Shown here: piece by piece, positions 1,814 through 55,549 of the stretch
Position numbering within the stretch: the first letter of the stretch is position 1
Layout of the letters: every line of letters begins with the position of its first letter
Assembly (NCBI GenBank): GCA_002238505.1
Contig: MPMM01000016.1
Coordinates: forward strand, 1-64,000
Reading direction: 5' to 3'
DNA from: SAR202 cluster bacterium bin22
GTDB taxonomy: Bacteria > Chloroflexota > Dehalococcoidia > Lucifugimonadales > UBA3495
Length of the DNA: 64,000 nt
Program-made: the position numbers and the translations under genes
The notes under the pieces: model-generated
The model's database searches: none
What the model saw: only the letters and a program-made list of their open reading frames with translations
Told to the model about the DNA's origin: nothing

Positions 1814-1910
1814 GCATGTGCGGTAGTGGCGACCCGGGAATCGGGGCAATCGTTACTGGAAGCGCCACAACTGACGGATGGGGACTTGACTAATAATGGT
1901 GTAAAACCTA

Positions 1911-1943
1911 TACTTGAAACAAGTACCACGGGAGTTTCAAGTA
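1911..1943 (+). promoter_or_regulatory. Inverted repeat covering the transposase start
   Basis: TACTTGAAAC (1911-1920) is perfectly complementary to GTTTCAAGTA (1934-1943). The ribosome-binding GGGAG lies in the loop and the last base of the second arm is the A of the ATG. The RNA hairpin could limit translation, or the DNA palindrome could be an operator. Confidence 0.5.
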
Positions 1944-3277
1944 TGGAAACAGCACAGGCACGGTCCCTTACGGCCCTTGGACCAGACGACCCGGACGACG
2001 GTGAAGAAGGGCGCAGGCAGCGCGGGTTGGCCATCGCCGCCCTGGTCCCCATAAAGCGGAACCGGCTGGGCTACCAGGTTCCTTCTCAGTCCAATAACGG
2101 TTCCTATGTTGTGAACCTGGATGACGATCCGTTCTGCTCCTGTCCAGATTTTGAGAAACGGCAGGAACCCTGCAAGCACGTCTTCGCTACCTCCTACGCA
2201 CTTCAGCGCGAAACCTGTAACCGGGATTGGCAACGGGAAGACCCGGAGGACACGGAGACTATTACGGAACGCAAGTCCTACTGGCAGATCTACAATCTGG
2301 CCCAGGTCAACGAACAGGAAATGTTAGGTATTCTGCTAAGGGACCTGTGCAATACTGTGCCCCAAGCGCCCCAGGAAGGTAGGGGGAAAGGTCGTCCCCC
2401 ACATCCCTTGGGCGACATGATCCTTGCCTGTGCGCTGAAAGTCTATTTCGAAAAGTCGGGTCGCCGGAATCAGACCAACCTTCGGAACGCCGCTGCCGCC
2501 GGCCTGATGGAGAAATACCCGTCATTCACTACGGTCTTCCGGTACATGGAGAACCCGGCGCTGACGCCCATCCTGCACAACCTAATAGAGCGGAGCGCCC
2601 AGCCGTTGACGGCAGTGGAAACCGACTTTGCTGCCGACGCCAGCGGGTTCTCGACATCGGTGCATGACCGTTGGTTCTCCGACAAGTGGGGTTCGGGCAG
2701 CAAGCAGAAGAAGGCCCACGCTCGCTACCTGAAAGTTCACCTGATGTGCGGTGTCCAGACCAACGTGATTACTCGGGCCATAATAACGGACGCGGACTCT
2801 CACGATGGTCAGCACCTGACGGAACTGGTGAAGTCCACAGGCAAGAATTTTGAGGTCAGGGAGGTAATGGCGGACAAGGCTTACCTGAGCGGTGCCAACC
2901 TGCGCCTGGTCAGCGAAGTCGGGGCAACCCCGCTAATTCCCTTCAAGTCCAATTCCAAGGCGCGCTATAACGAGGGCAGAAACCGGGGAAGTGAGGAAGC
3001 CGTGATCTGGAACCTGTGCTATCACTACTTCAAGCTGAACCAAGAAGAGTTTAAGGCCCGCTACCACAAGAGGAGCAATGTGGAGTCGACATTCTCGGCA
3101 GTGAAGGCCAAGTTCGGAGGCCGTCTGCTTTCCAAGCGGGAGGATGCCCAAGTGAATGAGGTCCTGTTGAAGCTGTTGTGTCACAATATCTGCGTGTTGA
3201 TCCATGCCTTTTACAAGCTGGGGATCCGGGCGGAGTTTAAGCCGGAGGAAGAGAGGGAGTTGGGGTTGGCGGCGTGA
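1943..3277 (+). CDS. DDE transposase with N-terminal SWIM zinc finger
   Basis: The product has 444 residues from an ATG preceded by GGGAG; an in-frame extension to 1826 lacks a ribosome-binding site. Residues about 60-85 carry a SWIM finger, C-x-C-x(n)-C-x-H (CSCPDFEKRQEPCKHV). The rest is an IS4/IS5-type DDE transposase: TDFAADASGF supplies the first Asp, the block around ADKAYLSGAN the second, and the YHKRSNVESTFSAVKAKFG block the catalytic Glu with the Y-x(2)-R-x(3)-E-x(6)-K signature. The SWIM finger probably binds DNA or a partner. The gene looks intact, but I could not find convincing terminal inverted repeats, so the ends of the element are undefined. Confidence 0.85.
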   Translation: METAQARSLTALGPDDPDDGEEGRRQRGLAIAALVPIKRNRLGYQVPSQSNNGSYVVNLDDDPFCSCPDFEKRQEPCKHVFATSYALQRETCNRDWQREDPEDTETITERKSYWQIYNLAQVNEQEMLGILLRDLCNTVPQAPQEGRGKGRPPHPLGDMILACALKVYFEKSGRRNQTNLRNAAAAGLMEKYPSFTTVFRYMENPALTPILHNLIERSAQPLTAVETDFAADASGFSTSVHDRWFSDKWGSGSKQKKAHARYLKVHLMCGVQTNVITRAIITDADSHDGQHLTELVKSTGKNFEVREVMADKAYLSGANLRLVSEVGATPLIPFKSNSKARYNEGRNRGSEEAVIWNLCYHYFKLNQEEFKARYHKRSNVESTFSAVKAKFGGRLLSKREDAQVNEVLLKLLCHNICVLIHAFYKLGIRAEFKPEEERELGLAA

Positions 3278-4065: not shown

Positions 4066-4683
4066 TTATGGGGAATCGGATGGTTGCCATCCCGGCGGAA
4101 CACAAATGTCCCAAAGGCTGATGGACACCGTGTCGAACTGTTCGGTCATTTCTTCAAAGTCAGTCCTTGAGAAAGTATCCAGGTGACCACGCTTTTCCCA
4201 TTCCGCCATTACACCGTCTACAACATCCATTGCCTCTTGAGAAGCAACAAAGTCGTACTTCCGGCGTTTCCCCGTAAAACGCTCGTCCCTGCAAAGTTTT
4301 AAGCTGGCCATCATTCGGTTGAATGACTCCGAAAGGTCTTCTTTCAGGACTTCCCGTTCGGTAGCCGATACTGTCGGAAAAGGGGTAGGAGTTGGCGGCT
4401 CGGTGGGTCCGGGTGTTGGTATCGGAGTCGATGTTGGAGTAGGGGTGGCTGTCGCTTTTGCTGTTGCTGTCGGGGAAGGTGTTGCGGTAGCCGTAGGTTC
4501 AGGCGTCGGGGTGTTAGTAGGTGTCGGGGTCGGAGTGGGTAGGCTAGCTAATTTGGCTTCTACTTCTGCCGATACGGTTGCGGGAATATCCGGCGTAGGA
4601 ATGGGCGGAGTGTAAGGGCTGCTACAGGCAATCAGGGCGAGAATCAAGGTTGCTACCATCATAGCCATCAAGGGACGCTTCAC
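4066..4683 (-). CDS. Lipoprotein with Thr-Pro-rich linker, under a structured leader
   Basis: The product has 205 residues with a GTG start. The signal peptide (KRPLMAMMVATLILALIAC) ends in a lipobox with Cys20, so the protein is lipid-anchored on the outer face of the membrane. Residues about 48-102 are a TPTPTPTNTPTPEPTAT-type linker typical of Chloroflexota lipoproteins. The C-terminal 100 residues form a small, mostly helical domain with two Cys (KLCRDERF and WDICVPPGW), perhaps a disulfide; no family is recognised. Translation is likely controlled by the leader at 4684-4822, which can pair with the ribosome-binding region GGGGG. An antisense frame exists only because of the repeats. Confidence 0.75.
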   Translation of the reverse strand: MKRPLMAMMVATLILALIACSSPYTPPIPTPDIPATVSAEVEAKLASLPTPTPTPTNTPTPEPTATATPSPTATAKATATPTPTSTPIPTPGPTEPPTPTPFPTVSATEREVLKEDLSESFNRMMASLKLCRDERFTGKRRKYDFVASQEAMDVVDGVMAEWEKRGHLDTFSRTDFEEMTEQFDTVSISLWDICVPPGWQPSDSP

Positions 4684-4822
4684 AAGGGAACCCCCACGTT
4701 GTCAGGATGTTGGCACCTGCTACAGCAACCTTCATCCAAGCAATAACGACGTGGGGGCACGAAGGCCCCAACGATGCCTGACTGGTTCGCCATTAACTTG
4801 AATGAGATTGATTGCTGTAGCG
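4684..4822 (-). ncRNA. Structured 5' leader RNA, copy 1 (riboswitch-like)
   Basis: Read on the minus strand from about 4822. GCTACAGCAA (4821-4812) pairs perfectly with TTGCTGTAGC (4728-4719). GTCAGG (4782-4777) pairs with CCTGAC (4706-4701). GGGGC-CTTCGT-GCCCC (4769-4754) is a local hairpin. CCCCCACGT (4757-4749) pairs with ACGTGGGGG (4699-4691), which contains the likely ribosome-binding site of the lipoprotein gene. The GTCAGG and anti-SD helices cross other pairings, implying a pseudoknot or a switch. Copy 2 at 55550-55686 keeps every helix with compensating base changes. No known riboswitch class was recognised. Confidence 0.75.
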
Positions 4823-4828
4823 GACCGT

Positions 4829-4857
4829 AGTATGGGGGATTGATTATGGTTTTTCAA
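4829..4857 (-). promoter_or_regulatory. Promoter of leader copy 1
   Basis: On the minus strand TTGAAA (4857-4852), 17 bases, then CATACT (4834-4829). The predicted RNA start lies near 4822, giving a 5' UTR of about 140 bases. Confidence 0.55.
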
Positions 4858-10174: not shown

Positions 10175-11015
10175 GCCGGGCTAACCGGGCAACCCACGCA
10201 AACCCACCAAAACAGGGGCGGGGCCCAAACCCCCGCCCCGCCCCCCCCCTCCCCCCCCCCGCGCGGGGGGGGGAGTGTGGGGGGGGGGGCGACCCCCCCA
10301 CCCAACAAACCAACCCTAACCCGCTCCCGTTCGTGGTGAGCCCGTCGAACCACCCCCCCAGGATGTCCCTTCCCCCTCGAAGGGGGAAGGCTAGGATGGG
10401 GGTGATCCCCCCAACCAACAAGCCAACCCTAACCCTCTCCCGTTCGTGGTGAGCCCGTCGAACCACCCCCCAGGGTCTATTGATTTTCCAAGATGTCCCT
10501 TCCCCCTCGAAGGGGGAAGGTTAGGATGGGGGTGATCCCCCCACCAACCAACCAACCCAGAAGTCATGTCGCCCTGAGCTTGCCGAAGGGCCTCCAATCC
10601 TCCACCCCCCCCGGCCTCAACCCCCCCCCCCGAGCCCGCCTAAAGCCCCGAAACCCCCTTTGGGCCTCCAACAACAACAGGCATCCCCCCCCCCACCCAA
10701 AAGTCATGTCGCCCTGAGCTTGCCGAAGGGCCTCAAATCCTCCCTCCCTGTCCACCTAAAGCCCCGAAACCCCGTTCGGGGAACAGCATACCCCCCAACC
10801 AACAAACCAACCCAAAGTCCCTTCCCCCTCGAAGGGGGAAGGCTAGGATGGGGGTGATAGCGCAAGGCAACAAGTCATCAGGCCGAAGAACACCCCCCCA
10901 CCCCCACCCCACCCCGATTCCGTTCGTGGTGAGCCTGTCGAACCACCCCCCCTGTAATACTGCCGTAACGCTTCAGGGCCAATATAGGCATAACCCCACT
11001 CGCAGGAGGCCCCCT
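10175..11015. repeat. Repeat-rich intergenic region between the collagen-like genes
   Basis: No gene is credible here; all frames are repeat translations. It holds a C-run/G-run palindrome at 10231-10292, three copies of CGTTCGTGGTGAGCC-CGTCGAACCACC (about 10327, 10441, 10921), three copies of a hairpin unit with TTCCCCCTCGAAGGGGGAA plus GATGGGGGTGAT (10365-10406, 10495-10536, 10817-10858), and two copies of a GTCGCCCTGAGC-TTGCCGAAGGGCCTC unit (10563, 10703). The same families recur at 31091-31345, 48035-48080 and 50165-50335. Confidence 0.75.
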
Positions 11016-13558: not shown

Positions 13559-16500
13559 TCAGTCCGTCAGATTGGTAACAGTGACCGTTACTTCCAGCTT
13601 GGCGATCTGGGCCGTGCTGTCGTCGGCATCCCGGGCTTCCACCGTCACCAGGTAAATGTTGTTACGGCCAGAATCTGACGGACTCTCGTAGTCCGGCGGG
13701 GAAGCAAAGGTCAGAACCCCCGTCTCGCTGATGGCGAAGGCGCTGCTGTCATCTCCCGAAAGTCGCCAGGTGATGTCCCCGCCCTCCGGGTCGGTGGCCC
13801 TGTAGGTGTACAGGTCTCTGGTGTCGTTCTCCTGGTAGGTGAACACGGTGGTGCTATTGCTCCTGAACTCCGGCGCCTCGTTTACCGCATTTACGGTGAC
13901 AATCACGTCCAGGTTTCCGTAATAGCGCCCGTCGGAGGCCCGCACCATTACCTCGTAAACGTTGTCCCGGTCGGAGTCGGCGGGCCGCTCGTGATCGGGA
14001 TTGTTCCTGAAGGTCAGTTCTCCGCCCTCGTTGATGGTGAAGTCGCCCCCGTCTCGTCCAGAGACGCTCCAGCGGGTGATTTCTGTCGTGGTGTCCTCCG
14101 GGTCGGTGGCGGTGTAGGTGGCCAGGACAGCCTCGTGGTTTTCCTGTACGTCGATGGCGGTGTTGCTGCTTGTTTCCGCTATCTCCGGCCCTTCGTCCTG
14201 GTTGGTGACGGAGACGACAACGTCAAAGGTTCCTACACTGCCCTGGGCATCGGTGGCCTGCACCGTTACCTGGTAGTCGTTGTCGTCGGGCCGGGGCGGA
14301 TTCTCAAAGTCGGGCGGGTTGATGAAGGAGAGCACGCCCCGCTCGCTGATTTCAAAGCGGCTGGCGTCCAGGCCGCCCACCGACCAGGTAAAGTCGTTGC
14401 CCTCGGGATCGGTGGCTCGGTAGGTGTAGATGGTCCCCGTGCCATTCTCGCGGAAGGTGCGGGCGTTGCTGCCGGTAATCACCGGTGGCTCGTTGTCCGA
14501 GGCGACGGTGATGGTCACCTCGTAACTGCCATATACCCTGCCGTCGTAGGGGCGTATGGTCACCAGGTACTCGTTGTCCCGGTTCCCGTCGGCGGGCCGG
14601 TCGTGGTCCGGCGGGTTCCTGAATGTCAGGTCAGCCGTCGCACGCCCCGTTTGTTCGCTGGTGTCAGTAATGGTGAAGTCGCCGCTGTCCGTACCGCCCA
14701 GGGACCAGCGGGTGACCTCTGAACCCTCCGGGTCCACGGCGGTGTAGGTGGCCACTACTTGGTCAAAGTTCTCGGCTACGCTGCGGGCTGCCTGCCCCGT
14801 AACCTCCGGGCCCTCGTTGACCTCGGTTACGGTTACGGTCACGTCCAGGGTCCCTTCGTTGCTGCCGTCGGAGGCCACCACCGTGATGTCATAGACGTTG
14901 TCCTGGTCGGCGTCGGCGGGTTGCTCGTGGTTGGGCGCGCTGCTGAAGAACAGCTGGCCCCGCCCGCTGCTGTCCGGCGTGATGGTGAAGTCGCCGCCGT
15001 CCGTCCCCCGCACCGACCACTGGATTTTGGTATTCAGGTCCATGTCCCGGGCCGTGTAGGTGTAGAGGCGGACGTCAGTGGCGGTGTTCTCCCTGAAGCT
15101 CAGGGTGTCCCTGCCAGTAATCTCCGGCGCCGCCTCATTCTCGTCCCTCACTGTGACCGTCACCTCCAGCTCCCCGTAGGTACTGCCGTTGTAGGCACGA
15201 ATGGTCACCAGGTACTCGTTGTCCCGGTTCCCGTCGGCCGGCCGGTCAAAGTCCGGGGTGTTCCTGAAGGTCAGTTGGGCCGTGTAGGTGCCCGTGGGCC
15301 CGATATTGAAGTCGCCCGCGTCGGTTCCGGCCAGTCTCCAGCCGGTTACCGCGTCGTCCCTTTCGCCGGCGTCCGGGTCTCTGGCTGTGAAAGTGGCGTT
15401 GGCCAGGCTCTGACCTTCGACGACTGTATAGGCGGTAGTCCCGGTTGGCTCAGGCCCTTCATTAACTTCGGTTACGGTTATGGAGACGTCCAAAGTTCCT
15501 TCGCTGCCCTGGTCATCGGTCGCGACGACTGATATAAGGTACTCATTGCCCGTATCCGAGTCGGTGGGACTCTCGTAATCCGGAGGACTGCTGAAGGTCA
15601 GTACACCGGTATCGCTGATGTCGAAGGCATCGCCGTCGTCTCTCCCTCCTTGCCCCCTGACCGACCAGGTGATGGTGGTGTTGCGGTCTGTGTCGGTGGC
15701 CCGGTAGGTGTACAGGCGCTGTGTGATTGGAGTGTTCTCCCGGAAGCTAAGGCTCTGGCTGCCCGTCACCACCGGCGCGGCCTCGTTCTCGCTGCCCACG
15801 GTGACGGTCACCTCCAGGGAGCCGTACCGGTTGGTGGCGTCGTATGCCCTCACGGACACCAGGTACTCGTTGTCCCGGTTCCCGTCGGCCGGCCGGTCGT
15901 AGTCCGGGGCATTGCGGAACGTCAACTCGCCGTCCTCACTGATCAGGAAGTCGCCTCCGTCGCTGCCGCTCAGCGACCAGCGCGTAATGTCCGAACCCTC
16001 CGGGTCCACGGCGGAATAGGTTGCCAGTGTCTGGGTCTGCGGGTCCAGGGTGGGGTCGGTGTACTCCTGGAGGGATATGCTTTCCCGCCCGGTTACCACC
16101 GGCCCTTCGTTCAGGTCGGTCACGGTGACAGTCACGTCAAAGGTTCCGGTGTTGCCCTGATCATCCCGGGCCCGCACCGTCAGTTCGTAGGCGTTGTCGT
16201 CGTTCGCATCGGCCGGGTCGTCAAAGTCCGGCGGGTCCCTGAAGGTGAGGACGCCCCGCTCGCTGACCTCAAACAGGCTGCCGTCCGTGCCTCCAGGAGT
16301 AATCCAGTCAAACTCGTCCCCCTCCGGATCGGTGGCTCGGTAGGTGTAGACGGTTCCCGTGCCGTTCTCACTGAAGGTGCGGGCGTTGCTGCCGGTGATT
16401 ACTGGCGGTTCGTTGGCGCCGGTGACGGTGACGGTAATGTCGTAGGAGCCGTACCGGCCCCGGCTGTCGTAGGCCCGGATGGTCACCAGGTACTCGTTGT

Positions 16501-19500
16501 CCCGGTTCCCGTCGGCGGGACGGTCCACGTCGGGCGGGTTGCGGAAGGTCAGGTCCGCCGTGTCGTTGCCCGTCTGGTCGCTGGTGTCGGTGATGGTGAA
16601 GTCCCCGCCGTCAGTGCCCGTCAGCGACCAGCGGGTTACGTCGTCACCTTCCGGGTCCGCGGCGGTAAAGGTGGCGCCAGCCACATCGACACTCTGTGTG
16701 ACCGACTGCCTTTCGCTGACGGTGAACTGGGTAGTGCCCGTAATGGTCGGCCCCTCGTTCACCTCGGTGACGGTGACCGCGACGGGAAGTTCGCCACGAT
16801 TGGTTCCGTCGGAGGCTACGATGGTGATGTCGTACACGTTGTCCGTGTCCTGGTCTGCCGGTTGCTCGTGGTCGGGCGGACTGCGGAAGAACAGCTCACC
16901 GCGACCGCCGCTGTCCGGAGTGATGGTGAAGTCGCCACCATCGTCACCCTCCACCGACCAGGTGAAGACCGTATTCAGGTCTGTATCGGTGGCACGGTAG
17001 GTGTACAGGCGGGTGGTGGTGGCCGTGTTCTCCTGGAAGCTCAAAGTCTCCCGGCCCGTGACCACCGGGACTTCCTCGTTCACGTCGGTGACGGTCACCC
17101 TCACATCCAGGGACCCGTAGCGGTTGCCCGAGTCGTAGGCACGGACGGACACCAGGTACTCGTTGTCCCGGTTGCTGTCGGCCGGCCGGTCGTAATCCGG
17201 CAGTATCCGGAAGGTCATTACGCCGGTTTCGCTGATCTGGAAGTCGCCTCCATCTGACCCGGACAGGCTCCAGCGGGTGACTTCATCCCCCTCCTGGTCG
17301 TTGGCGGTGAAGGACGCGCCCGACAGGTTCCCCCCCTCCACTACGGTGAAGGCCGTGGTTCCCGTCACCTTGGGCCCCTCGTTCACCTCGGTGACGGTAA
17401 CGGTGGCGTCCACCCTGTCCCGCAGTCCACCCTGATCATCGGCCACCACCGTGATTTCATAAACGTTGTCGCCGTCCGAGTCCGCCGGAAGCTCGTAGTC
17501 AGGCAGTAGGCGGAAGGTAAGCACCCCGTTGTATATGGCAAAGTCTGCCCCATCCGCCCCCTCCACCGACCAGGTGATTGTGTCGTCAGGGTCGGGATCG
17601 GTGGCCCGGTAGGTGTAGAGCACCGACGCGGTGTTCTCCCGCTGGGTGAACTCGGTGCGGCTCTTAGTGGTTATCACCGGCGCTTCGTTCACCGGTGTGA
17701 CGGTCACCATCACACCCAATGTCCCGTAGTAACGGTCGTCCGACGCCTGCACCGTGAACAGGTACTCGTTGTCCCGGTTGGAGTCGGCGGGACGCTCGTG
17801 GTCGGGTGTGTTGCGGAAAGCCAGCGCGCCGTTCTCATCGATGGTGAAATCCCCGCTGTCTGTACCCGTCAATCGCCAGGCGGGTTCCACGATCAGGTCG
17901 CCCCGACCACCGGCGGTGTAGGTGGCCAGGACTCCATCCTGACCTTCGGCACGGGTAATGGCGGCGTTTCCGGTAACTTCGGTAACATCACTCACCGTAA
18001 CCGTAACGGCATGGGACCCGTAGTACCGGCCGTCGTAGGGACGCACCTCCACCTCGTAAACGTTGTCCCGGTCCGAGTCGTCCGGCCGTTCGTAGTCGGG
18101 TACGCTGCGGAAGGTCATCACCCCCGTCTCGGTGATAGTGAAGTCTCCGCCGTCCCGTCCGCCCAGGCTCCAGCGGGACACAGTCTCTCCCTCCGGGTCC
18201 GATGCGCCAAAGCTGGCCCCGCCCCAGCTGCGGTTCTCCTGCACGGTGAAGCTGTCCCCACCCGAGGTTACCTCCGGACCCTCATTGACGTCGGTGATGG
18301 TGACGGTGACGTCAAAGCCGGCGACGTTGCTGTCGTCATCGCTGGCCCGCACGGTTACCTGGTATTCGTGGCCTTCGGCGCCGGAACCCTGAGGACTTTC
18401 GTAGTCCGGAGGAGTGGACTCGCTGAAGTACAGTTCGCCCCGCTGTTCGTCGATGGTGAAGAACCTGGCGTGAGTACCCGCCACCGACCAGGAAATGGCT
18501 CCTCCCTCCAAGTCGGTGGCCCGGTAGGTGTACAGGCGGGAGGTCCGGTTCTCCGGGTGCCTCATCTTCGCTGCCGACTCGCTGGCGGTGGTGATGATGG
18601 GCAGTTCATTGACCGGGGCCACCGTCGCCGTCACGTCCAGCGTGCCGTAGTACCGGTCGTCGGTGGCCTGCACCGTGAACAGGTACACATTGTCCCGGTT
18701 GCTGTCGGCCGGCCGCTCGTGGTCGGGTATGTTCCGGAAGGCCAGAGCGCCGCTCTCATCAATGGTAAAGTCTCCGCTGTCAGTCCCGGTCAGCCGCCAG
18801 GCTGGCTCCACCACCAGGTCGCCAGTGCCGCCAGCGGTGTAGGTGGCCAGCGTCCCCTCAAAATTCTCGGGCCGGGTGATGGCGGGCGTACCGCTGATTT
18901 CGCTTACATCTCCCACCGTCACCGTGACGGCATGAGACCCGTAGTACCGGCCGTCGTATGGCCTTACTTCCACCTCATAGATATTGTTGCGGTCCGAGTC
19001 GGCTGGACGCTCAAAATCCGGCACGCTGCGGAAGGTCATCACTCCCGTCTCGGTGATGGTGAAGTCCCCGCCGTCCCGTCCCCCCAGGCTCCAGCGGGAG
19101 ATGGTCTCTCCCTCCGGGTCGTTGGCGCCAAAGCTGGCCCCAGCCCAGTTGCTGTTCTCCTGGACGGTGAAACTGTCCCCGCCTGAGGTTACCTCCGGAC
19201 CCTCGTTGACGTCGGTGACGGTGACGGTCACTTCGTGGGTACCGGTCAGGGTCCCGTCGCTGGCCCGGGTCGTGACCTGATATTCCTGGCTGCCAATCCC
19301 CGAACCCTGGGGGTTCTCGTAGTCCGGCGGGGTTGTCTCGCTGAAATACAGTTCGCCCCGCTCTTCGTCGATTCTGAAGAACCTGGCGTGAGTCCCCGCC
19401 ACCGACCATCTAATAGCTTCCCGCTCCGGGTCCGTGGCCCGGTAGGCATACAGGCGCGATGTCCGGTTCTCCGGGTGCCGCATCGTCGTGGCTGAACTAC

Positions 19501-22500
19501 TGGTGGTGGTGATTTCGGGCGCCTCGTTCACCGGTGTCACCGTTACCGTCACGTGGTGAGATCCGTAGTACCTCCCGTCGTAGGGCCGTACCTCCACTTC
19601 ATAAATGTTGTTCCGGTCCGAATCTGCCGGTCGCTCGTAATCGGGAGTGTTTCGGAAGGTCATCACACCGGTCTCGGTAATGGTGAAGTCCCCGCCGTCC
19701 CGGCCACCCAGACTCCAGCGGGACACGGTCCCGCCCTCCGGGTCCGAGGCGCTGAAGCTGGCGTTGGTCAGGTCCTGGTTCTCCTGGACGGTAAAGCTCT
19801 CCCCGCCCGAGGTTACCTCCGGCCCCTCGTTAACGTCGGTCACCGTGACCGTTACGGGGAGGTTAGCCGTGTTGGGCGGGCTGCTGTCGTCGCTGGCCTG
19901 TATCGTCACCTGGTATTCGTGGCCGCCGGTTCCCGAGCCCCGGGGATTCTCATAGTCCGGCCCATTGTCTTCGTCGAAGTACAGTTCGCCCCGCTGTTCG
20001 TCGATGCGGAAGAACCTGGCGTGGGTCCCCGCTACCGACCAGGTTACGGCCCGATTCTCCGGGTCCGTGGCCCGGTAGGCGTACAGCCGCGACGTCCGGT
20101 TTTCCGGGTGCCGCATCGTCGTGGCCGAACTGCTGGTGGTGGTGATTTCGGGGGCCTCGTTCACCGGCGTCACTGTCACCGTCACGTGGTGGGACCCGTA
20201 GTACCGGCCGTCGTAAGGCCGGACCTCCACCTCATAAATATTGTTTTGATCCGAGTCCGCCGGCCGCTCGTAGTCCGGGATGTTCCGGAAGGTCAGCACC
20301 CCGTTCTCATCGATGCTGAAGTCCCCGCCGTCCCGGCCGCCCAGGGTCCAGCGCGACACACTGCCACCCTCCGGGTCGCTGGCGGTGAAGGTCTCACCCG
20401 CCCACTCCTGGTTCTCCCGCACGGTGAACCTGCGGCCACCAGAGGTGATCTCCGGCCCCTCGTTGACGTCGGTGACGGTGACGGTGACGGGCAGGGACTC
20501 CGTGTTGGGCGGGCTGCTATCGTCGCTGACCTGTATGGTCACCTGGTAGACGTTGTCCCCGCCGGAATCGCCAGGCCGCTCAAAGTCCGGCGGGCTGGCT
20601 GCGGCGAAGGAGAACTCCCCCCGCTGGTTGATGGCGAAGAAGCGCCCGTCCACGCCACCCAGCGACCACCTGGTCGTGCTGGACCCCTCCGGATCGGTGG
20701 CCCGGTAGGTGTATAGGCGGGTTATCCGGTTCTCCGGCTGGGTGAATTCGGTCCTGCTCGTCGTGGTGATGGTGGGGGGTTCGTTGACGGGAGTTACCGT
20801 CACCGTGACGTCAAAGGTGTCATAGTACCGGTCATCCGAAGCCTGCACCGTAAAGACGTACTCGTTATCCCGGTTGCTGTCCGCCGGACGCTCGTGGTCC
20901 GGGGTGTTGCGGAAGGCCAACTGGCCGTTCTCGTCGATGGTGAAGTCCCCGCCATCCGTGCCAGTCAGGCGCCAGGCGGGATTTACGGCCAGGTCACCCC
21001 GGCCGCCAGCCGTGTACGTGGCCAGGACACCCTCCTGGCTTTCGGCCCGGGTAATGGTGGCATTTCCGCTAATCTCGTTTACATCACCCACCGTGACCGT
21101 CACCTGGTGGGAGCCGTAGTACCTGCCGTCGTAAGGCCTTACCTCCACCTCGTACTCGTTGTCCCGGTTCCAGTCGTCGGGGCGTTCGTGGTCCGGGGTC
21201 CGCCTGAAGGTCATTACCCCGCTGGCGTCAATGGTGAAGTCCCCGCCGTCCCGCCCGCCCAGGCTCCAGCGGGTCACATCGCCGGACTCCGGGTCTCGGG
21301 CGGTGAATGTCGCCCCGGCCCACTCCTGGTTCTCCTGGACATTAAAGCTGTTGCCGCCCCGGGTAACCTCCGGCCCCTCGTTGACGTCGGTTACCGTGAC
21401 CGTCACCGCCAGGGACTCCGTATTGGGCGGGCTGCTGTCGTCGCTGACCTGTATCGTCACCTCGTAAATGTTGTCGCTGCCCGAGTCCCCGGGTATGTCA
21501 AAGTCCGGCGATCTGTCTTCCCTGAAAGAGAATTCCCCGCGTTCGTTTATGGTGAAGAAGCGTCTGTCGTCCCTGCCCAGCGACCACGTAATGGTGCTGG
21601 ACCCCTCCGGGTCGGTGGCCCGGTAGGTGTAGAGGCGAGAGGTGCGGTTCTCCGGTTGGCGCAGGCTGGTGGCCGACGTGCTGGTGGTCGTAATGGCGGG
21701 CGGTTCGTTTACCGGCGTTACCGTCACCGTCTCGTCAAAGCTGGCGTAAATGCTGCCGTCGGAGACCTGCACCGTGAAGGTGTACTCGTTGTCGCGATTG
21801 CTGTCGGCAGGCCGCTCGTAGTCCGGCGAATTGCGGAACCGCAGTTCCCCCTGCTCGTTGATTACAAAGTCGCCGCCGTCGGTGCCCGACGTACGCCAGC
21901 GGGATACCATACCGCCCTCCGGATCGGTGGCGGTGTACCTGGCCAGTACCGTATCCTGGGCCAGGTTCTCCGGGACACTGCCAGGCGGTGTCCCGAACAG
22001 GTTCCCAACCCTGCTGATTTCCGGCCCTTCGTTCACTGCCGTGACCGTCACCGTAACTGGCAGTTCGTCAGTAAGGGGCTGATTGGGAACATCGTCCGTA
22101 GCCCGTACCGTCACGTTATAGACGTTGTCGCGTCCTGCGTCCCCGGGATTCTCGTAGTCCGGCGGGGTCGCAAACTCGAGCGTCCCACCCGTGATGGTGA
22201 ACTCCCCCGCATCAGGCCCCGCAGTGGACCAGTTAATGCCGTGCCCTTCGGGGTCGGTGGCGCTGAACTGGTAGATGGCGCCTGTGGCATTTTCCCGACG
22301 GGAAAATTGGGGGTTGCTGACTTGCCGCAGCGCCGGAGGCTCGTTGACATTCAGCACCTCCACGGTTATGGGCAGCGTTCCATAGTATTGCCCGTCGTAT
22401 GCCCGCACCGTAACCAGGTACTCGTTGTCCCGGTTGCTGTCGGCCGGGCTTTCGTAGTTGGGGGTACTGCGGAAGGTCAGCTCCCCCGTGTCCCGGTCAA

Positions 22501-25500
22501 TGTTGAAATCCCCGCCGTCGGTACCGGCTAGGCTCCAGGTGAAGGTGGAAGCGGCGCCCTCCGGGTCGCTGGCGGTGTAAGTCTGGCTGAAGTCCTCAAC
22601 ATTCTCATTGACGCTGTGGCTGGCCGGGCCGCTGACCGTAGGCGGTTCGTTGACCGGGGTGACGGTCACTGTGACGTCAAAAGACGTGGACTGGCTTCCC
22701 TGCCCAGATGAGGTTCCGTCGCCCAGGTTGCCATCGTCGGTGGCGACGATCTGGACGTTGTAAACGTTGTTCCCGCCTGAGTCGGTTGGATTCTCGTGGT
22801 CGGGAATCTCGGCAAAGGTCAGGTTGCCCGAGCTATCAATGTTGAAGTCGCCCGAGTCGGTGCCGCCCACGGCCCACGTCAACGAACTTCCCTCCGGGTC
22901 GGTGGCCGAATAGCGGTCCAGTGTCCTGGTGGTGGCCGTGTTCTCCGCATAGGAAAGGGCAGCGTCGCCGGATATGGCAGGCGCCTCGTTTACGTCGTTG
23001 ACCGTGACCGTCACCGCCAGTTCTCCCCGCAGGTTGCCCTCTTCAGTGGCCTGCACCGTAACCAGGTACTCGTTGTCTCGGTTGCTGTCGGCGGGACTCT
23101 CAAAGTTGGGCGGGTTCTTGAAGGTCAGCTCTCCCGTGTTCCGGTCAATGTCGAAATCGCCGCTGTCAGCGCCGGACAGGCTCCAGGTGAAGGTGGATGC
23201 GGTGCCCTCCGGATCGCTGGCGGTGTAGGTCTGGCTGAAGTCCTCAACATTCTCATCGACGCTGTGGCTGGCCTGGCCGGTTACTTCCGGTGGTTCGTTG
23301 GAGTCGCTTACCGTCACCATCACCGTTATGGTGTCGTCAACCGTAGTATCAGTATTGCCATGTAAGTCTTTTCCGTCAGTAACCGACATCGTAAGGGTGT
23401 AGCTGCTCTTGCCTTCGTAATTCAAGGCCTCTTTGGTTCGCAACTGACCGCTCGTGTCAACCACGTCGAAGGAGGCCGCGTCGGTTCCCGAGATGGCATA
23501 TGTCAGGGAGTCGCCGTCGGCATCGGTGGCAGCAATTGGGGCGCCGATGTCACGTCCCGGCGGAGTGTTCTCGTCAACGCCACGCATGCCGTCCTCAGTC
23601 GAGGGAAACGCCGGAACACGGTTCGGCTGGACAATTTTGACTTGCTTCGCGGAGGCTTTTTTCGCATAGTTGCCTACCGTATCCCTCAACCCCGTCGAGA
23701 CGAAATCTCTGTAGGAGACAATGAGGTCATCATCCGCGGTGACCGCAGACGCGAGCGTCACTGTCACCTGGTTGCCTTGAACCGCGACCGCGTCGTTATG
23801 GACTCGCTCTCTGGCAATCTTGTCAAAGACATAAAACCCGGAACTACTTGCGGGCGGAACGAAGCTTTCGTCCAGGGTATCGTCCCACGTCAAAACCAGG
23901 TCGGTGTGGCCCTCCAGGATGGCCGCGGAGACCAGTGATGGAGGCATGGCATCAACCAGGTGCCCGGCTTGCGGGTCGAGCTTCACCCGTGCGGGCGCTT
24001 CCTCCCCGGTTGAGACATAGCGGACCATCCCCTGGATGGCCGACTGTTGAACAGAGATGCCGTCATTGTCGACGTCTCCCTCGGTTAACGGGTACCTGAA
24101 GGTCAGGGTGCTGGTGCCGGTACCACTGGCGTAGGTCGCTGCCCGCGTTTCTTCTCCAATCTTTAGCCTTAGCCTCGGTACGCCGCTGACGGACACGGGT
24201 TCGTTAAACGTCACGGTCGCCTGTATCACGTCCCTCCAGCTGCCTCCTCTGTTCCAGGAGTAGGTCTTGTCGGCCCCGGGATCTGAGATGATGGCTACAT
24301 CGGTAGCATCATTGCGGACCGTGCGAGAGGAGAAACCGGCGGCCTCGTTGCCGGCGAAGTCCTTCAACGGTCTGGCCGCCGGACCGGTGGGCGCCGTGTA
24401 GGTAACATTCGCCGTGTCCGTGGCGTTGAGGGTTCCCGAAAGAGACAGGGTCACGACGTTGGCGGCAACACCTGCGGTGACAGTGCGGCTCCCTCCTCCA
24501 ATGTTGAGGGCGAAAGCGCCGCTGGCTGGCACCGAGGTCTCATCAAGGCGTTCACTGTAGGTCAGCCGCAGGCTCGAGTCTTCCCGGTCGATCCGTGCCG
24601 TCAGCAGCGTTGGCGCAGCGGTGTCTGTCGCTGTTGGTGTTGCCGTTGCCTCCGCTGCGTCGCCGTCGCCATTGTGATTGTAGGCTAGTACACGTAGCGT
24701 GTGACTCTGGCCGCTGGCCAGGCCGGAGATTGTGTGCTGTAGATCCGCCAGGTCGGTAACGGTCGCGCTGCGAGACCGGCTGTACTCCTGTACCCCGGAT
24801 TTCCACTGGACCTTGTAGCCCTCCACCGGCGATCCGCCGTCGTAGGAGGGCTCCCGCCAGGAAACTGTCAGCGTCCCGTTTCCAGTTGAGGTAACGGTAA
24901 CATTCGTTGGCTCAAGGGGCTGGCAGCCGCCGTCGCTCCAGGGATTGCGGGTGACGCCATTTCCGAACGCCGAAGCGTCCGCCTTTCTGTTATTGCAATA
25001 GCCGCCGAAGGAGTTCCGCAAATGGTAGACGACCACCGCCCGGTCCTTGGTGTCCTCTATCGCCTTCACTTCGGCCCAGATTCGGTCCAGGTCAAGATTG
25101 CCATCAGCATTCTCATACGTATCAGCAAGCCAGGACGGCATATCTCCACGGGCCGCACTGCTAACAACTGTGATAGCCTCTGCGCTGACGGTCTCGGTAA
25201 TATAGTCGCACGACCGCCAATACGATCCCGCGCTCACATCCTCGGTACCGAGAGTGACAATCGAAAGGGCATCAGCGTATAACTCGATTGGTTTACAACT
25301 AAAATACTCAGACTCGGAAAAATGCTGCAGGCCATAGCTGAAAGGAACCAGGTCGTAGAAATAGAGATGAGCAGCCCCCAGCGGACCGGGCGAAGAAGTA
25401 ATTGAATTGGCCAGGGTGTAAATATGGGCCAGTTCGTGGACGATGACATACTCCAGCCCCGAGTAGTACCTTCCTGCTCCGATCTCTCTTGCTACACACC

Positions 25501-26131
25501 TCCGCAGTTGCGCCACAATCAGTGAGCAGTGGTCGATCCAGGCATAACCGCCATCCTGTGTCGAGAATTCCGCGGCAACATTCTGGTTTAGCATGAAATC
25601 CCATGTCTCTCTCAACCAGGGATGCGAACTCTCAAAGAGTTCGATGATTTCTTTCTCGATGAACGGGCGTGCCGGTGGAAGGCCCGATTTAGGCGTGCCA
25701 GTCTCTTCCACGGACGGGACGCTGTCCCCGCTTGAGTTCACGGCGATGACCCGCACCGTGTATTCGGTGTCATTGGTCAGCCCGGTAATAACTTCCTTGT
25801 ACCGGCTTTTGGCCGAAGTCGACAGGAGGGATACTACGCTGGCTGTCGGATCGCTGGTGACCTGACGAGTCGAGTCGTACTCCTCGCTGCCAGACTTCCA
25901 CTGGACCTTGAACGAGGCGGTGGAATCGGCGTCGGTTGATGACCAGCGCACCTCTAGCTGCTGGCTCTTGTAGGTATAGACCGCCACATCCGTCGGCGCA
26001 TCGGGCACGTCAGTCTGCGCGGAGGCGCCGGGCGCAGTGGCAAGGAGGGTTGCAATCAGCGCCCCTACGATGAGGAAACACAGCACGCCACTTGGTAATC
26101 TCGGTCCCATTAACCCAGGCAACTTCCCCAC
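13559..26131 (-). CDS. Giant secreted cadherin-like repeat protein with a metallopeptidase-like region
   Basis: The product has 4190 residues from GTG 26131, chosen because GAGGG lies 5 bases upstream; ATG 26110 is the alternative. The signal peptide ends ATAPGASAQT. An FN3 domain comes first, then a segment with HELAH (about 25425-25440) and a later IELYAD Glu, like a zinc peptidase. A second FN3 and SwmB/Calx-like domains follow. From about 23620 to the end there are about 32 cadherin-like repeats of about 100 residues with D-x-N-E and A-T-D-P-E-G calcium motifs. The protein ends right after the last repeat, with no visible anchor or sorting signal. A calcium-stiffened adhesin-like fibre is likely. 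Many repeats are nearly identical, pointing to recent internal duplication. Confidence 0.85.
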   Translation of the reverse strand: MGKLPGLMGPRLPSGVLCFLIVGALIATLLATAPGASAQTDVPDAPTDVAVYTYKSQQLEVRWSSTDADSTASFKVQWKSGSEEYDSTRQVTSDPTASVVSLLSTSAKSRYKEVITGLTNDTEYTVRVIAVNSSGDSVPSVEETGTPKSGLPPARPFIEKEIIELFESSHPWLRETWDFMLNQNVAAEFSTQDGGYAWIDHCSLIVAQLRRCVAREIGAGRYYSGLEYVIVHELAHIYTLANSITSSPGPLGAAHLYFYDLVPFSYGLQHFSESEYFSCKPIELYADALSIVTLGTEDVSAGSYWRSCDYITETVSAEAITVVSSAARGDMPSWLADTYENADGNLDLDRIWAEVKAIEDTKDRAVVVYHLRNSFGGYCNNRKADASAFGNGVTRNPWSDGGCQPLEPTNVTVTSTGNGTLTVSWREPSYDGGSPVEGYKVQWKSGVQEYSRSRSATVTDLADLQHTISGLASGQSHTLRVLAYNHNGDGDAAEATATPTATDTAAPTLLTARIDREDSSLRLTYSERLDETSVPASGAFALNIGGGSRTVTAGVAANVVTLSLSGTLNATDTANVTYTAPTGPAARPLKDFAGNEAAGFSSRTVRNDATDVAIISDPGADKTYSWNRGGSWRDVIQATVTFNEPVSVSGVPRLRLKIGEETRAATYASGTGTSTLTFRYPLTEGDVDNDGISVQQSAIQGMVRYVSTGEEAPARVKLDPQAGHLVDAMPPSLVSAAILEGHTDLVLTWDDTLDESFVPPASSSGFYVFDKIARERVHNDAVAVQGNQVTVTLASAVTADDDLIVSYRDFVSTGLRDTVGNYAKKASAKQVKIVQPNRVPAFPSTEDGMRGVDENTPPGRDIGAPIAATDADGDSLTYAISGTDAASFDVVDTSGQLRTKEALNYEGKSSYTLTMSVTDGKDLHGNTDTTVDDTITVMVTVSDSNEPPEVTGQASHSVDENVEDFSQTYTASDPEGTASTFTWSLSGADSGDFDIDRNTGELTFKNPPNFESPADSNRDNEYLVTVQATEEGNLRGELAVTVTVNDVNEAPAISGDAALSYAENTATTRTLDRYSATDPEGSSLTWAVGGTDSGDFNIDSSGNLTFAEIPDHENPTDSGGNNVYNVQIVATDDGNLGDGTSSGQGSQSTSFDVTVTVTPVNEPPTVSGPASHSVNENVEDFSQTYTASDPEGAASTFTWSLAGTDGGDFNIDRDTGELTFRSTPNYESPADSNRDNEYLVTVRAYDGQYYGTLPITVEVLNVNEPPALRQVSNPQFSRRENATGAIYQFSATDPEGHGINWSTAGPDAGEFTITGGTLEFATPPDYENPGDAGRDNVYNVTVRATDDVPNQPLTDELPVTVTVTAVNEGPEISRVGNLFGTPPGSVPENLAQDTVLARYTATDPEGGMVSRWRTSGTDGGDFVINEQGELRFRNSPDYERPADSNRDNEYTFTVQVSDGSIYASFDETVTVTPVNEPPAITTTSTSATSLRQPENRTSRLYTYRATDPEGSSTITWSLGRDDRRFFTINERGEFSFREDRSPDFDIPGDSGSDNIYEVTIQVSDDSSPPNTESLAVTVTVTDVNEGPEVTRGGNSFNVQENQEWAGATFTARDPESGDVTRWSLGGRDGGDFTIDASGVMTFRRTPDHERPDDWNRDNEYEVEVRPYDGRYYGSHQVTVTVGDVNEISGNATITRAESQEGVLATYTAGGRGDLAVNPAWRLTGTDGGDFTIDENGQLAFRNTPDHERPADSNRDNEYVFTVQASDDRYYDTFDVTVTVTPVNEPPTITTTSRTEFTQPENRITRLYTYRATDPEGSSTTRWSLGGVDGRFFAINQRGEFSFAAASPPDFERPGDSGGDNVYQVTIQVSDDSSPPNTESLPVTVTVTDVNEGPEITSGGRRFTVRENQEWAGETFTASDPEGGSVSRWTLGGRDGGDFSIDENGVLTFRNIPDYERPADSDQNNIYEVEVRPYDGRYYGSHHVTVTVTPVNEAPEITTTSSSATTMRHPENRTSRLYAYRATDPENRAVTWSVAGTHARFFRIDEQRGELYFDEDNGPDYENPRGSGTGGHEYQVTIQASDDSSPPNTANLPVTVTVTDVNEGPEVTSGGESFTVQENQDLTNASFSASDPEGGTVSRWSLGGRDGGDFTITETGVMTFRNTPDYERPADSDRNNIYEVEVRPYDGRYYGSHHVTVTVTPVNEAPEITTTSSSATTMRHPENRTSRLYAYRATDPEREAIRWSVAGTHARFFRIDEERGELYFSETTPPDYENPQGSGIGSQEYQVTTRASDGTLTGTHEVTVTVTDVNEGPEVTSGGDSFTVQENSNWAGASFGANDPEGETISRWSLGGRDGGDFTITETGVMTFRSVPDFERPADSDRNNIYEVEVRPYDGRYYGSHAVTVTVGDVSEISGTPAITRPENFEGTLATYTAGGTGDLVVEPAWRLTGTDSGDFTIDESGALAFRNIPDHERPADSNRDNVYLFTVQATDDRYYGTLDVTATVAPVNELPIITTASESAAKMRHPENRTSRLYTYRATDLEGGAISWSVAGTHARFFTIDEQRGELYFSESTPPDYESPQGSGAEGHEYQVTVRASDDDSNVAGFDVTVTITDVNEGPEVTSGGDSFTVQENRSWGGASFGASDPEGETVSRWSLGGRDGGDFTITETGVMTFRSVPDYERPDDSDRDNVYEVEVRPYDGRYYGSHAVTVTVSDVTEVTGNAAITRAEGQDGVLATYTAGGRGDLIVEPAWRLTGTDSGDFTIDENGALAFRNTPDHERPADSNRDNEYLFTVQASDDRYYGTLGVMVTVTPVNEAPVITTKSRTEFTQRENTASVLYTYRATDPDPDDTITWSVEGADGADFAIYNGVLTFRLLPDYELPADSDGDNVYEITVVADDQGGLRDRVDATVTVTEVNEGPKVTGTTAFTVVEGGNLSGASFTANDQEGDEVTRWSLSGSDGGDFQISETGVMTFRILPDYDRPADSNRDNEYLVSVRAYDSGNRYGSLDVRVTVTDVNEEVPVVTGRETLSFQENTATTTRLYTYRATDTDLNTVFTWSVEGDDGGDFTITPDSGGRGELFFRSPPDHEQPADQDTDNVYDITIVASDGTNRGELPVAVTVTEVNEGPTITGTTQFTVSERQSVTQSVDVAGATFTAADPEGDDVTRWSLTGTDGGDFTITDTSDQTGNDTADLTFRNPPDVDRPADGNRDNEYLVTIRAYDSRGRYGSYDITVTVTGANEPPVITGSNARTFSENGTGTVYTYRATDPEGDEFDWITPGGTDGSLFEVSERGVLTFRDPPDFDDPADANDDNAYELTVRARDDQGNTGTFDVTVTVTDLNEGPVVTGRESISLQEYTDPTLDPQTQTLATYSAVDPEGSDITRWSLSGSDGGDFLISEDGELTFRNAPDYDRPADGNRDNEYLVSVRAYDATNRYGSLEVTVTVGSENEAAPVVTGSQSLSFRENTPITQRLYTYRATDTDRNTTITWSVRGQGGRDDGDAFDISDTGVLTFSSPPDYESPTDSDTGNEYLISVVATDDQGSEGTLDVSITVTEVNEGPEPTGTTAYTVVEGQSLANATFTARDPDAGERDDAVTGWRLAGTDAGDFNIGPTGTYTAQLTFRNTPDFDRPADGNRDNEYLVTIRAYNGSTYGELEVTVTVRDENEAAPEITGRDTLSFRENTATDVRLYTYTARDMDLNTKIQWSVRGTDGGDFTITPDSSGRGQLFFSSAPNHEQPADADQDNVYDITVVASDGSNEGTLDVTVTVTEVNEGPEVTGQAARSVAENFDQVVATYTAVDPEGSEVTRWSLGGTDSGDFTITDTSEQTGRATADLTFRNPPDHDRPADGNRDNEYLVTIRPYDGRVYGSYEVTITVASDNEPPVITGSNARTFRENGTGTIYTYRATDPEGNDFTWSVGGLDASRFEISERGVLSFINPPDFENPPRPDDNDYQVTVQATDAQGSVGTFDVVVSVTNQDEGPEIAETSSNTAIDVQENHEAVLATYTATDPEDTTTEITRWSVSGRDGGDFTINEGGELTFRNNPDHERPADSDRDNVYEVMVRASDGRYYGNLDVIVTVNAVNEAPEFRSNSTTVFTYQENDTRDLYTYRATDPEGGDITWRLSGDDSSAFAISETGVLTFASPPDYESPSDSGRNNIYLVTVEARDADDSTAQIAKLEVTVTVTNLTD
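13562..23620 (-). repeat. About 32 tandem cadherin-like coding repeats
   Basis: Unit length is about 300-330 bases. Three sub-types alternate. One begins VNEAPEITTTSSSATTM with RHPENRTSRLYAYRATDPE, one VNEGPEVTSGG with FTVQEN, and one SEISG or TEVTG with a TYTAGG phrase. Blocks of two or three sub-types recur as larger units, best seen between about 17,650 and 21,400. Confidence 0.8.
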
Positions 26132-26132
26132 G

Positions 26133-26636
26133 TCAACCCTCGCCACGTAAATGGAAGGACCCAGGGAAATGGGCAAGCGTGCTCCCCCGGCGACAATGCC
26201 GGCCATGCCCTGGAGTAATGAGAGGCAAAGGAACAAAGCCCGGCCACAGCCCGTTCCGGACAAGAGAGTGCCAATCCGCTGTTGCGGCACAGAGGACAAG
26301 GCGGGAAGGGAACGCCGGCGGGAAGGTCTCATACCGCGACGCCGTCCGAGGCGTGTTCAAGTTTCCCGGATCCACTCCTATCGTCGGCGCGCCGCTGCCC
26401 GGGAGCTGCCCACGGACTGGATCGCCACCGTAAGAGTGCGGGTCAGCCTGCGATGCGCCGTTTCTTTGCTGCTGTATGAAGCGTCGAAGAAGAGATCTGA
26501 CGGCCCAGTCTTCCTGCTCCCGCTGCGCGGGTGGGTCCTGGGCAAATGCGGTATAGCCCGCCGTTACCAGGCAGGCAAGAACCGGGACTGTCAGAGGTGA
26601 GGCAAGTTTAATCAAGGAATGCAGGGAACTTGCCAA
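26133..26636 (-). CDS. Possible small secreted protein coupled to the cadherin-like gene
   Basis: The frame gives 167 residues from TTG 26636. The N-terminus (IKLASPLTVPVLACLVTAGY, then TAFAQ) looks like a signal peptide, and a polar segment follows. The last 60 residues look like non-coding translation. The TGA at 26135-26133 is one base away from the GTG chosen for the giant gene, an arrangement typical of translational coupling. There is no good ribosome-binding site for the TTG. It could be a leader gene, or a decayed gene that only happens to reach the start of the next one. Confidence 0.35.
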   Translation of the reverse strand: MASSLHSLIKLASPLTVPVLACLVTAGYTAFAQDPPAQREQEDWAVRSLLRRFIQQQRNGASQADPHSYGGDPVRGQLPGSGAPTIGVDPGNLNTPRTASRYETFPPAFPSRLVLCAATADWHSLVRNGLWPGFVPLPLITPGHGRHCRRGSTLAHFPGSFHLRGEG

Positions 26637-31079: not shown

Positions 31080-31345
31080 CCGTTCCCCCCGAGCCTGCCG
31101 AAGGGCCTCAAATCTCCGCCACACAACAAGGCCGGGGAAACCCTATCATCGCCGTCGGCAGGCTCTCCGCCATGCAGTCATGCCCCCCTGACCGCCAACC
31201 ATGTTGCCCTGAGCCTGCCGAAGGGCCTCAACTCTCCGCCACGTTACAAGGCCAGGGAAACTCAGTCATCGCCATCGGCAGTCTCTCCGCAATGCAGTCA
31301 TGTCGCCCTGAGCCTGCCGAAGGGCCTCAAAACCTTCCTGCCTCT
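31080..31345. repeat. Degenerate tandem repeat array
   Basis: GAGCCTGCCGAAGGGCCTC begins at 31091, 31211 and 31310, with similar sequence between (CTCTCCGCCA.., ATGCAGTCATG). That gives two units of about 120 and 99 bases and a third that is cut short. The family recurs at 10563, 10703 and about 50165-50335. The frames through it are artefacts. Downstream at about 31497-31525 is a TCGTCTTTCCCGC-GCAGGCGGGAATCC hairpin unit related to the elements at 43587 and 52384. Confidence 0.65.
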
Positions 31346-31640
31346 CCGGTTGCAGGTCCGAAAGCTGGTTTGCGGGATGGTGCCTGGGTTCCTTTATCCT
31401 TGCGGAACCGCCATTTCCCTGAAGCGCGATTGCCCTGGTTCAGGTCGCAGGGCTATCGCATGAATTCTGACTCGGTCCCATCACCCCTCCTGTCGTCTTT
31501 CCCGCGCAGGCGGGAATCCAGACCCCCATCGTATGTTCCCCACAATATCCTGTTGACCGTTCCCTGGAAGTTTGGCCAATTTGGCGCTCATGCGTTTGCC
31601 CCGGTTCAGGTTGCCTCCTTACTGATACCACAGCTCGTCA

Positions 31641-31650: not shown

Positions 31651-31752
31651 TATTGGGGCGGCGCGACATACTCCCCCTGCGCCCACTCAACCCCCATGTC
31701 CCTTAACCCTGGTTACTGATTCTCCCTTCCAACCCTTTTTTGTGTGCATGAA

Positions 31753-50164: not shown

Positions 50165-50335
50165 CAATGTCGCCCTAAGTACAAGTCATGTCTCCCTGAG
50201 CGTAACCGAAGGGCCTCAAACCCTTCCTGCCCGTCCGCTTACAGGTCCGGCCCCCCCACTGCGACATGCGGAAACCTCCCAAACCATAAACCAATGTCGC
50301 CCTGAGCTTGCCGAAGGGCCTAAAATCCCTCCCTT
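50165..50335. repeat. Dispersed CCCTGAGC-CCGAAGGGCC repeats
   Basis: Two copies (about 50183-50260 and 50292-50325) of the family at 31091-31345. The first also shares the following CCTTCCTGCC..ACAGGTCCG stretch with the unit at 31310, so the repeat extends to about 80 bases. No gene lies between 50122 and 50453. Confidence 0.65.
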
Positions 50336-50453
50336 CCAATATCACGCGGGCCCGCAGAGAAGGTCGCCGAAAAAAGTTTCGACCCTCCAACCCCCCCCGA
50401 ACCACAATCCCCCTCCCCCGCTCGTGTTCTATTGTAAAATGGCTTGAACCAGC

Positions 50454-55201: not shown

Positions 55202-55549
55202 TCACTCTTGGTCGTTGCCAGTATCCTCGAAGATGGTCATATCCAGGGTGCCAATCAAGCCTATAGCCAAAATAGGTGAAGCGAGATAAGCGAGGCACCA
55301 CCAGGGAGATACCCCGGCATTTCCAAAGCGGCGGATTACACCGGAACAATGCCAAAGCAGGCAAACGATAGTAAGCAAGGTAAAGCCGACCAATAGGCCT
55401 GCGTTTTCTCGCTCGCCAAGGCCACCTACCAGGCCGAAGCTAAGCATTGCCCCGAAGCCAAAATTGAGTGAGAACCCGAGATAAAGTTGCACGGTCATCA
55501 GAATTATGACAGGCAACATGTAGAGCGACCAGAACCTTCTTTGAGTCAT
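55202..55549 (-). CDS. Small DUF805-like membrane protein under a structured leader
   Basis: The product has 115 residues. ATG 55549 is preferred over an in-frame start at 55591, because the latter lies inside the conserved leader. Three hydrophobic segments are seen (about 8-33, 52-70, 83-103), and the phrase IRRFGNAGVSPWWCLAYLAS resembles the R-R-L-H-D-x-G-x-S-G-W-W hallmark of DUF805 membrane proteins. The acidic tail is DTGNDQE. Its function is unknown. It shares a leader RNA design with the unrelated lipoprotein gene at 4066, so both probably answer to the same signal. Confidence 0.65.
   Translation of the reverse strand: MTQRRFWSLYMLPVIILMTVQLYLGFSLNFGFGAMLSFGLVGGLGERENAGLLVGFTLLTIVCLLWHCSGVIRRFGNAGVSPWWCLAYLASPILAIGLIGTLDMTIFEDTGNDQE

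Follow-up and report, generated by a model that had tools for sequence, protein, structure and literature searches.

Does the leader upstream of a lipoprotein gene on the minus strand of the window (the 64,000-nucleotide stretch of SAR202 cluster bacterium bin22 DNA analysed here) form a genuine regulatory RNA, and what might it do? A first-pass annotation had described it as an RNA with crossing helices that bury the ribosome-binding site, and had pointed to a second copy elsewhere in the window. From its sequence features, we consider it probable that the leader is a cis-acting translational switch that makes up the complete 5' UTR, adopts two states in response to a common signal, and is often found on transposon cargo.

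Two leaders with the same layout

Copy 1 extends from helix P1 to the start codon at positions 4681-4821 (minus strand) and matched the two covariance models described below, R1 and R2, with E values of 2e-33 and 1e-27. When the letters were re-read, each helix claimed for it was found in its place on the minus strand. The promoter attributed to it, σ70-type TTGAAA-17-CATACT, is likewise present at 4829-4857 (-35 box 4852-4857, -10 box 4829-4834), with the -10 box ending 7 nt before P1. In the sense of the RNA, the elements follow the order P1 5', P2 5', P5 5', P3, P4 5' overlapping P3, P2 3' and P1 3'. P1 pairs GCTACAGCAA (4812-4821) with TTGCTGTAGC (4719-4728). P2, which appears in the minimum free energy fold and was absent from the earlier list, is a further helix between P1 and the apical loop, with its 5' strand at 4787-4804 (CATTCAAG/AATGGCGA) and its 3' strand at 4733-4749 (TCGTTATT/CTTGGATG). 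P3 is the hairpin GGGGC-CTTCGT-GCCCC at 4754-4769 (strands 4765-4769 and 4754-4758), and has Cs in common with P4. P4 pairs CCCCCACGT (4749-4757), an anti-Shine-Dalgarno (anti-SD) mimic, with ACGTGGGGG (4691-4699), the Shine-Dalgarno (SD) region as judged from SD complementarity and P4 covariation. The pseudoknot helix P5 pairs GTCAGG (4777-4782) with CCTGAC (4701-4706). The P1 3' strand is followed by the linker AGGTGCCAACAT, the P5 3' strand CCTGAC, the P4 3' strand ACGTGGGGG, TTCCCTT and the GTG start of the controlled gene (4066-4683, minus strand), which encodes a lipoprotein with a TP-rich linker and no Pfam match.

Copy 2 (55547-55685, minus strand; R2 E value 3e-29) has the layout of copy 1 and, as had been noticed, keeps the four helices with different letters. 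Its P1 strands occupy 55675-55685 (GTCACAGCTAC) and 55587-55597 (GTAGCTGTGAC), and the P5 strands GTTCAGG and CCTGAAC lie at 55645-55651 and 55567-55573. The P3 hairpin, located in the analysis of its overlap with P4, occupies 55624-55639, and covariation places the P4 strands at 55618-55626 (CCCCCTTGT) and 55557-55565 (GCAAGGGGG, the SD region). This copy also has its own promoter, TTGACA-17-GATAAA, and controls a gene (55202-55549, minus strand) for a small membrane protein that was weakly DUF805-like in a Pfam search. Against dinucleotide shuffles, the nested-only folding energies gave z = -4.2 for copy 1 and z = -2.3 for copy 2.

Similarity to four congeneric genomes stops at 54645, just after the gene at 53732-54643 and upstream of copy 2, which is placed in a variable region because it lies shortly past this end. 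No mobile element could be outlined in a search around copy 2, and the copy 1 region has no second occurrence in the same genome besides the copy 2 RNA.

The window also contains repeats of other kinds. A 70-bp stretch at 56672-56742 is a short dispersed repeat, with further occurrences in contigs C28 and C43 of this genome (91-93%) and in a congener (76%). Another dispersed repeat, beginning AGTCATGTCGCCCTGAGCTTGCCGAAGGGC, has approximately four copies between genes, including 10562-10781, 31296-31375 and 50290-50369. Two giant ORFs (13559-26332 and 31744-42234) encode 4257 and 3496 amino acids, the first being made of many repeats of approximately 300 nt.

A leader family in the Chloroflexota

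A third copy, L003, was found in another genus of the same family using the DNA pattern of the P3 hairpin. Model R1 was built from three copies using the pairs of P1 and P3 only, and a second model, R2, was built from 63 matches. R1 matched in 21 of the 50 genomes of the family and in 39 of the 197 genomes of the order; in samples of 294 genomes from the class and 400 from the phylum, R2 matched in 32 and 20, respectively. These counts are lower bounds, few first-look candidates having been scored per genome. Nine strong copies (R2, E < 1e-7) are present in this genome. The family as recovered comprises approximately 100 copies, all the named ones in Chloroflexota, and the fold is kept even though mean pairwise identity is approximately 52%. 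The homologue search suggested by the first-pass annotation returned approximately 100 homologues with the helices kept and with compensatory changes.

Outside the phylum, a loose pattern scan of all phyla gave mostly noise among the matches listed, and the ten R2-strong loci among them were all from Dehalococcoidia or other Chloroflexota metagenome-assembled genomes. A plasmid collection searched for the leader RNA gave no match. Viral contigs held at least 80 pattern loci with no convincing copy among the matches listed, the best reaching 19.7 bits (E value 0.004).

Covariation of the helices

In 102 distinct sequences, 98.5% of P1 cells are paired and all 10 of its pairs have changed on both sides. 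P1 was part of the search model, so its pairing percentages are biased towards P1; its covariation stands nonetheless, because such a bias cannot give four pair types at most positions. P4, which was never in the search model as pairs, has 95.5% of its cells paired, and 9 of its 10 pairs have changed on both sides (53 cells versus 13 in shuffles). None of 500 shuffles reached the observed value, and slid partners were only 38-68% paired. Unlike P4, P1 almost lacks G-U pairs, which occupy 13 of 996 cells. P4 holds 80 G-U against 15 A-C cells, and it is read on this RNA strand because G-U is tolerated far more than A-C.

RNAalifold on the model-fitted alignment recovered P1 only, because the loops are unaligned. 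P2 and P5 lie in these poorly aligned loops and were therefore tested by swapping partners among 100 copies. Own strands exceeded swapped strands with z = 31 for P2 and z = 9.5 for P5 (0/5000), compared with 0.3 and 2.3 for two control segments; the shuffles include no phylogeny model and the z values are not probabilities. The crossing helix GTCAGG/CCTGAC reported earlier is thereby borne out: P5 encloses P3 and crosses P1 and P4. Together, the covariation and the approximately 100 homologues uphold the view of a leader with pseudoknots in which the ribosome-binding site is buried.

In 83 of 100 copies, P3 forms a clean hairpin. P3 (GGGGC/GCCCC) and P4 (CCCCC.../...GGGGG) overlap by 3 to 6 nt and are mutually exclusive there. 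Where a shared C becomes U, its P3 partner often becomes A and P4 keeps a U-G pair, a triple covariation that one would expect if P3 and P4 formed at different times. Strongly conserved unpaired positions are few, mainly AAG and GCC after P1 and GG...GG in the P1/P2 loop.

Expression signals and a proposed switch

The leader forms a compact unit, with a promoter 6 to 7 nt upstream, an RNA spanning the putative transcription start to the start codon, and a strong SD. A σ70-like promoter (score of at least 9) precedes 65% of the copies, compared with 3% of shuffled sequences, and in 65 of 100 copies a spacing of 6 or 7 nt separates the end of the -10 box from P1. The SD coincides with the P4 3' strand, with at least six consecutive anti-SD pairs in 95 of 100 copies. 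The start codon occupies one model position in 81 of 95 ORFs, a count raised by the inclusion of the start codon in the model.

Since P3 and P4 have nucleotides in common, the fold has the appearance of a translational switch with two states. Transcription would begin at or beside the first base of P1, as suggested by the fixed -10 box, and the transcript would form a P1/P2 stem whose large loop bears the small hairpin P3. The downstream strand containing the SD would fold back and pair with the loop segments flanking P3, forming P5 and P4; with the SD buried in P4, translation would be off. P4 could start from a free toehold (UUGC/GCAA) and then compete with P3 for the same Cs, and this exchange would set access to the start site. 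Mean duplex energies were -20.6 kcal/mol for P4, -10.5 kcal/mol for SD:anti-SD and -8.0 kcal/mol for P3, pseudoknot loop costs being ignored. By these energies the SD-buried state is likely to be the default, from which we infer a translational lock opened by the P3/P4 exchange. Our best guess for the sensor, one we hold to be about evenly balanced, is the leader RNA, which would bind a small molecule directly.

Genes controlled by the leader

The controlled genes are accessory, mostly exported cargo, with no shared pathway that points to a ligand. By simple rules rather than SignalP, raw counts gave a lipobox in 29 of 95 ORFs and a hydrophobic N-terminal segment in 63 of 95. The position upstream of a lipoprotein gene first described for copy 1 therefore recurs in part of the family, the products being otherwise unrelated. 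The common class of downstream genes anticipated by the first-pass annotation did not emerge: the 79 cargo proteins with matches fall into 55 Pfam families, none of them found in more than three proteins. Among these families are tRNA_anti-like, trypsin, TPR, RCC1, N6_N4 DNA methylase and the IS1595 zinc ribbon. The neighbourhoods of the copies contain no common regulator gene.

Two loci carry RNA-led N6/N4 DNA methylases (L253, 2860-4140, and L254, 4359-5897), one of them with an HNH domain fused to it. Three RNA-led lipoproteins of this genome (L047, 2311-2856; L049, 3013-3672; and window positions 4066-4683) have a common N-terminal motif, PTPDIPATVxAxVxxxLA, and then diverge. Their sequences read as if the leader and the signal/linker region had been joined to different domains.

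Linkage to transposons

Copies of the leader often head cargo genes inside IS1595/IS1-type transposons, an association that is new here. In a set of 20 RNA-bearing genomes with 38 IS1595 transposases, 22 of these are no further than 3 kb from a copy, compared with 0.4 expected. A general search for terminal inverted repeats without duplications was noisy (31 loci versus 15 in the control), and only repeats with exact 8-bp duplications were therefore counted. In nine distinct elements, the RNA is flanked by terminal repeats with 8-bp duplications. In genome G583, two exactly duplicated elements of 1604 and 2406 bp contain the RNA. Both are bounded by terminal inverted repeats, have 8-bp target duplications, and carry an IS1595 transposase on one strand and the RNA-led second gene on the opposite strand. 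An IS1595 transposase and an RNA-led gene share an element bounded by terminal inverted repeats with 8-bp duplications at L225/L226, L227/L228, L243, L078, L251, L263, L257 and L260. At L048, on contig C1 of this organism, the terminal repeats have exact 8-bp duplications and the transposase is IS1-like. In some elements, P1 lies 57 to 63 nt inward of the terminal repeat; in most, the terminal repeats are elsewhere, up to 1.8 kb from the RNA. At L044 and L045, the RNA is directly upstream of an IS1595-type zinc-ribbon ORF. At L061 (2881-3007), the RNA and a zinc-ribbon cargo gene occupy a 1199-bp stretch with IS1595-like terminal repeats and without a transposase, possibly a non-autonomous element.

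Transposases of the DDE_Tnp_1 type with SWIM or DUF772 domains lie near seven or eight more copies. One with DDE_Tnp_1 and SWIM domains (IS5/IS1182-like) is encoded in the window at 1826-3277 (plus strand), convergent with the copy 1 gene and 1.4 kb from copy 1, and relatives of it are near the RNA in three other loci. No terminal repeats were detected around this transposase and copy 1 together. Neither window copy has an IS1595 transposase or convincing terminal repeats with duplication around it. In the 20 genomes, 98 of 121 copies have no IS1595 transposase nearby. Because only approximately 19% have one within 3 kb, the transposon-cargo role may not extend to all copies.

The same leader precedes genes for exported or membrane proteins unrelated to one another and for a few DNA methylases, which are often carried by IS1595/IS1-type transposons. 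In the proposed mechanism, inserted cargo would in this way come under one common signal.

Relation to known systems

The earlier failure to recognise a known RNA class agrees with our searches of Rfam 15. The window at gathering threshold gave only a tRNA, copy 1 at E values up to 10 gave no match, and 11 loci, most with homologues, gave only rRNA and tRNA. For two homologues searched at E values up to 10, the only models returned were of animal microRNAs and nematode RNAs, with scores far short of the cut-offs. A literature search by title and abstract found no description of the leader family, the 2017 list of 224 candidate RNAs being covered where its families reached Rfam. The same type of search found no report of an IS1595 passenger gene with a dedicated promoter and structured leader. 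The present elements otherwise resemble IS1595-family passenger transposons, with DDE_Tnp_IS1595 and a zinc ribbon, terminal inverted repeats, 8-bp target duplications and a second gene; they differ in the promoter and structured leader dedicated to the passenger gene.

In pseudoknotted translational riboswitches such as preQ1-II, preQ1-III and SAM-II, the pseudoknot contains the SD and controls access to it. The present leader has the same arrangement, but it is larger and has no Rfam match; three of its long-range helices cross one another, and a hairpin competes with the helix that contains the SD. Its targets are unrelated exported proteins and transposon cargo, its ligand is only hypothetical, and it has fewer conserved unpaired positions than many aptamers. 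The preQ1 family is covered by a review (PMC11625349). At the level of sequence, the leader is a structured, covarying 5' UTR in which the SD-occluding P4 is overlapped by P3, as in riboswitches; the downstream genes are not tied to one ligand or pathway, a feature that is usual but not strictly required. The leader would work like a translational riboswitch and is a candidate member of that class, although the genes give no hint of a ligand.

The transposase leaders of IS10, IS50 and IS200 form simple hairpins that occlude the ribosome-binding site. They too are mobile-element mRNA leaders, but they act on the transposase, whereas the present fold leads a cargo gene and is a conserved multi-pseudoknot common to unrelated elements. 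Two earlier candidate motifs, Chloroflexi-1 (RF01698) and Transposase-resistance (PMC2864571), have names that suggest a taxon or gene context in common with the leader. Chloroflexi-1, expected within the Rfam set searched, gave no match to it; Transposase-resistance is listed without an Rfam accession, and its likeness is by name alone (PMC2864571). An integron attC site, in which pairing would be strand-neutral, was assessed by pairing and orientation and rejected: the balance of 80 G-U against 15 A-C cells ties the P4 pairs to the RNA strand, and the pairs are oriented towards the promoter and start codon. As a test for OMEGA/HEARO systems, the 25 commonest families listed for cargo and neighbours were inspected and included no IscB/TnpB nuclease.

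Alternative explanations

The strongest alternative is a translational leader whose state depends on a protein, a small RNA or temperature instead of an RNA-bound ligand, a reading we regard as plausible but doubtful. The variability of P2 and P5 and the few conserved loop bases are compatible with it, dozens of unrelated targets would suit a global factor, and an RNA chaperone could shift the P3/P4 exchange. However, the conserved unpaired AAG/GCC linker and GG...GG internal loop, as well as the three mutually crossing helices, are closer to ligand-binding folds than to a thermometer, and no common regulator gene accompanies the copies.

Leader hairpins of some insertion-sequence transposases damp expression and block translation from outside transcripts. 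The leader could similarly be a fixed damper or read-through guard of mobile genes, which would hold cargo expression low and block outside transcripts with no switch. The linkage to transposons, the zinc-ribbon ORFs directly behind the RNA at L044 and L045, the excess strength of P4 over SD:anti-SD and the start of P1 at the putative transcription start all fit such a guard. A hairpin alone would do for this purpose, yet the leader also retains P3, P5 and P2, with P3 in competition with P4; moreover, the unit includes its own strong promoter in most copies, and most are not now beside a transposase. We consider a fixed damper unlikely.

A DNA-level element (a transposon end, an integron-type recombination site or a protein operator) that mimics an RNA fold is very improbable: the near absence of G-U from P1 and its place 57 to 63 nt inside some terminal repeats are what such an element might show, but terminal repeats are mostly elsewhere, P4 tolerates G-U and not A-C, and the unit is oriented to the start codon with fixed spacing. 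A chance fold of two related leaders, suggested at most by the presence of only two copies in the window, was refuted by the folding z values and then by approximately 100 covarying homologues at 52% mean identity, and its probability is negligible.

Significance

A two-state translational switch accordingly remains our preferred reading. More tentatively, and with somewhat less than even confidence, we propose that the leader represents an undescribed class of riboswitch-like RNAs in Chloroflexota, carried along with transposon cargo. Transposon families unrelated to each other would then deliver new genes pre-wired to one host signal, each insertion enlarging an existing RNA-controlled regulon.

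The family adds a large, well-supported regulatory RNA to a phylum with few described ones, and its topology of crossing helices is unusual. If cargo genes of insertion sequences do carry their own conserved switch, the family would show how mobile elements connect newly delivered genes to host regulation; the RNA could then be used as a marker for cargo-bearing transposons in uncultured Chloroflexota.
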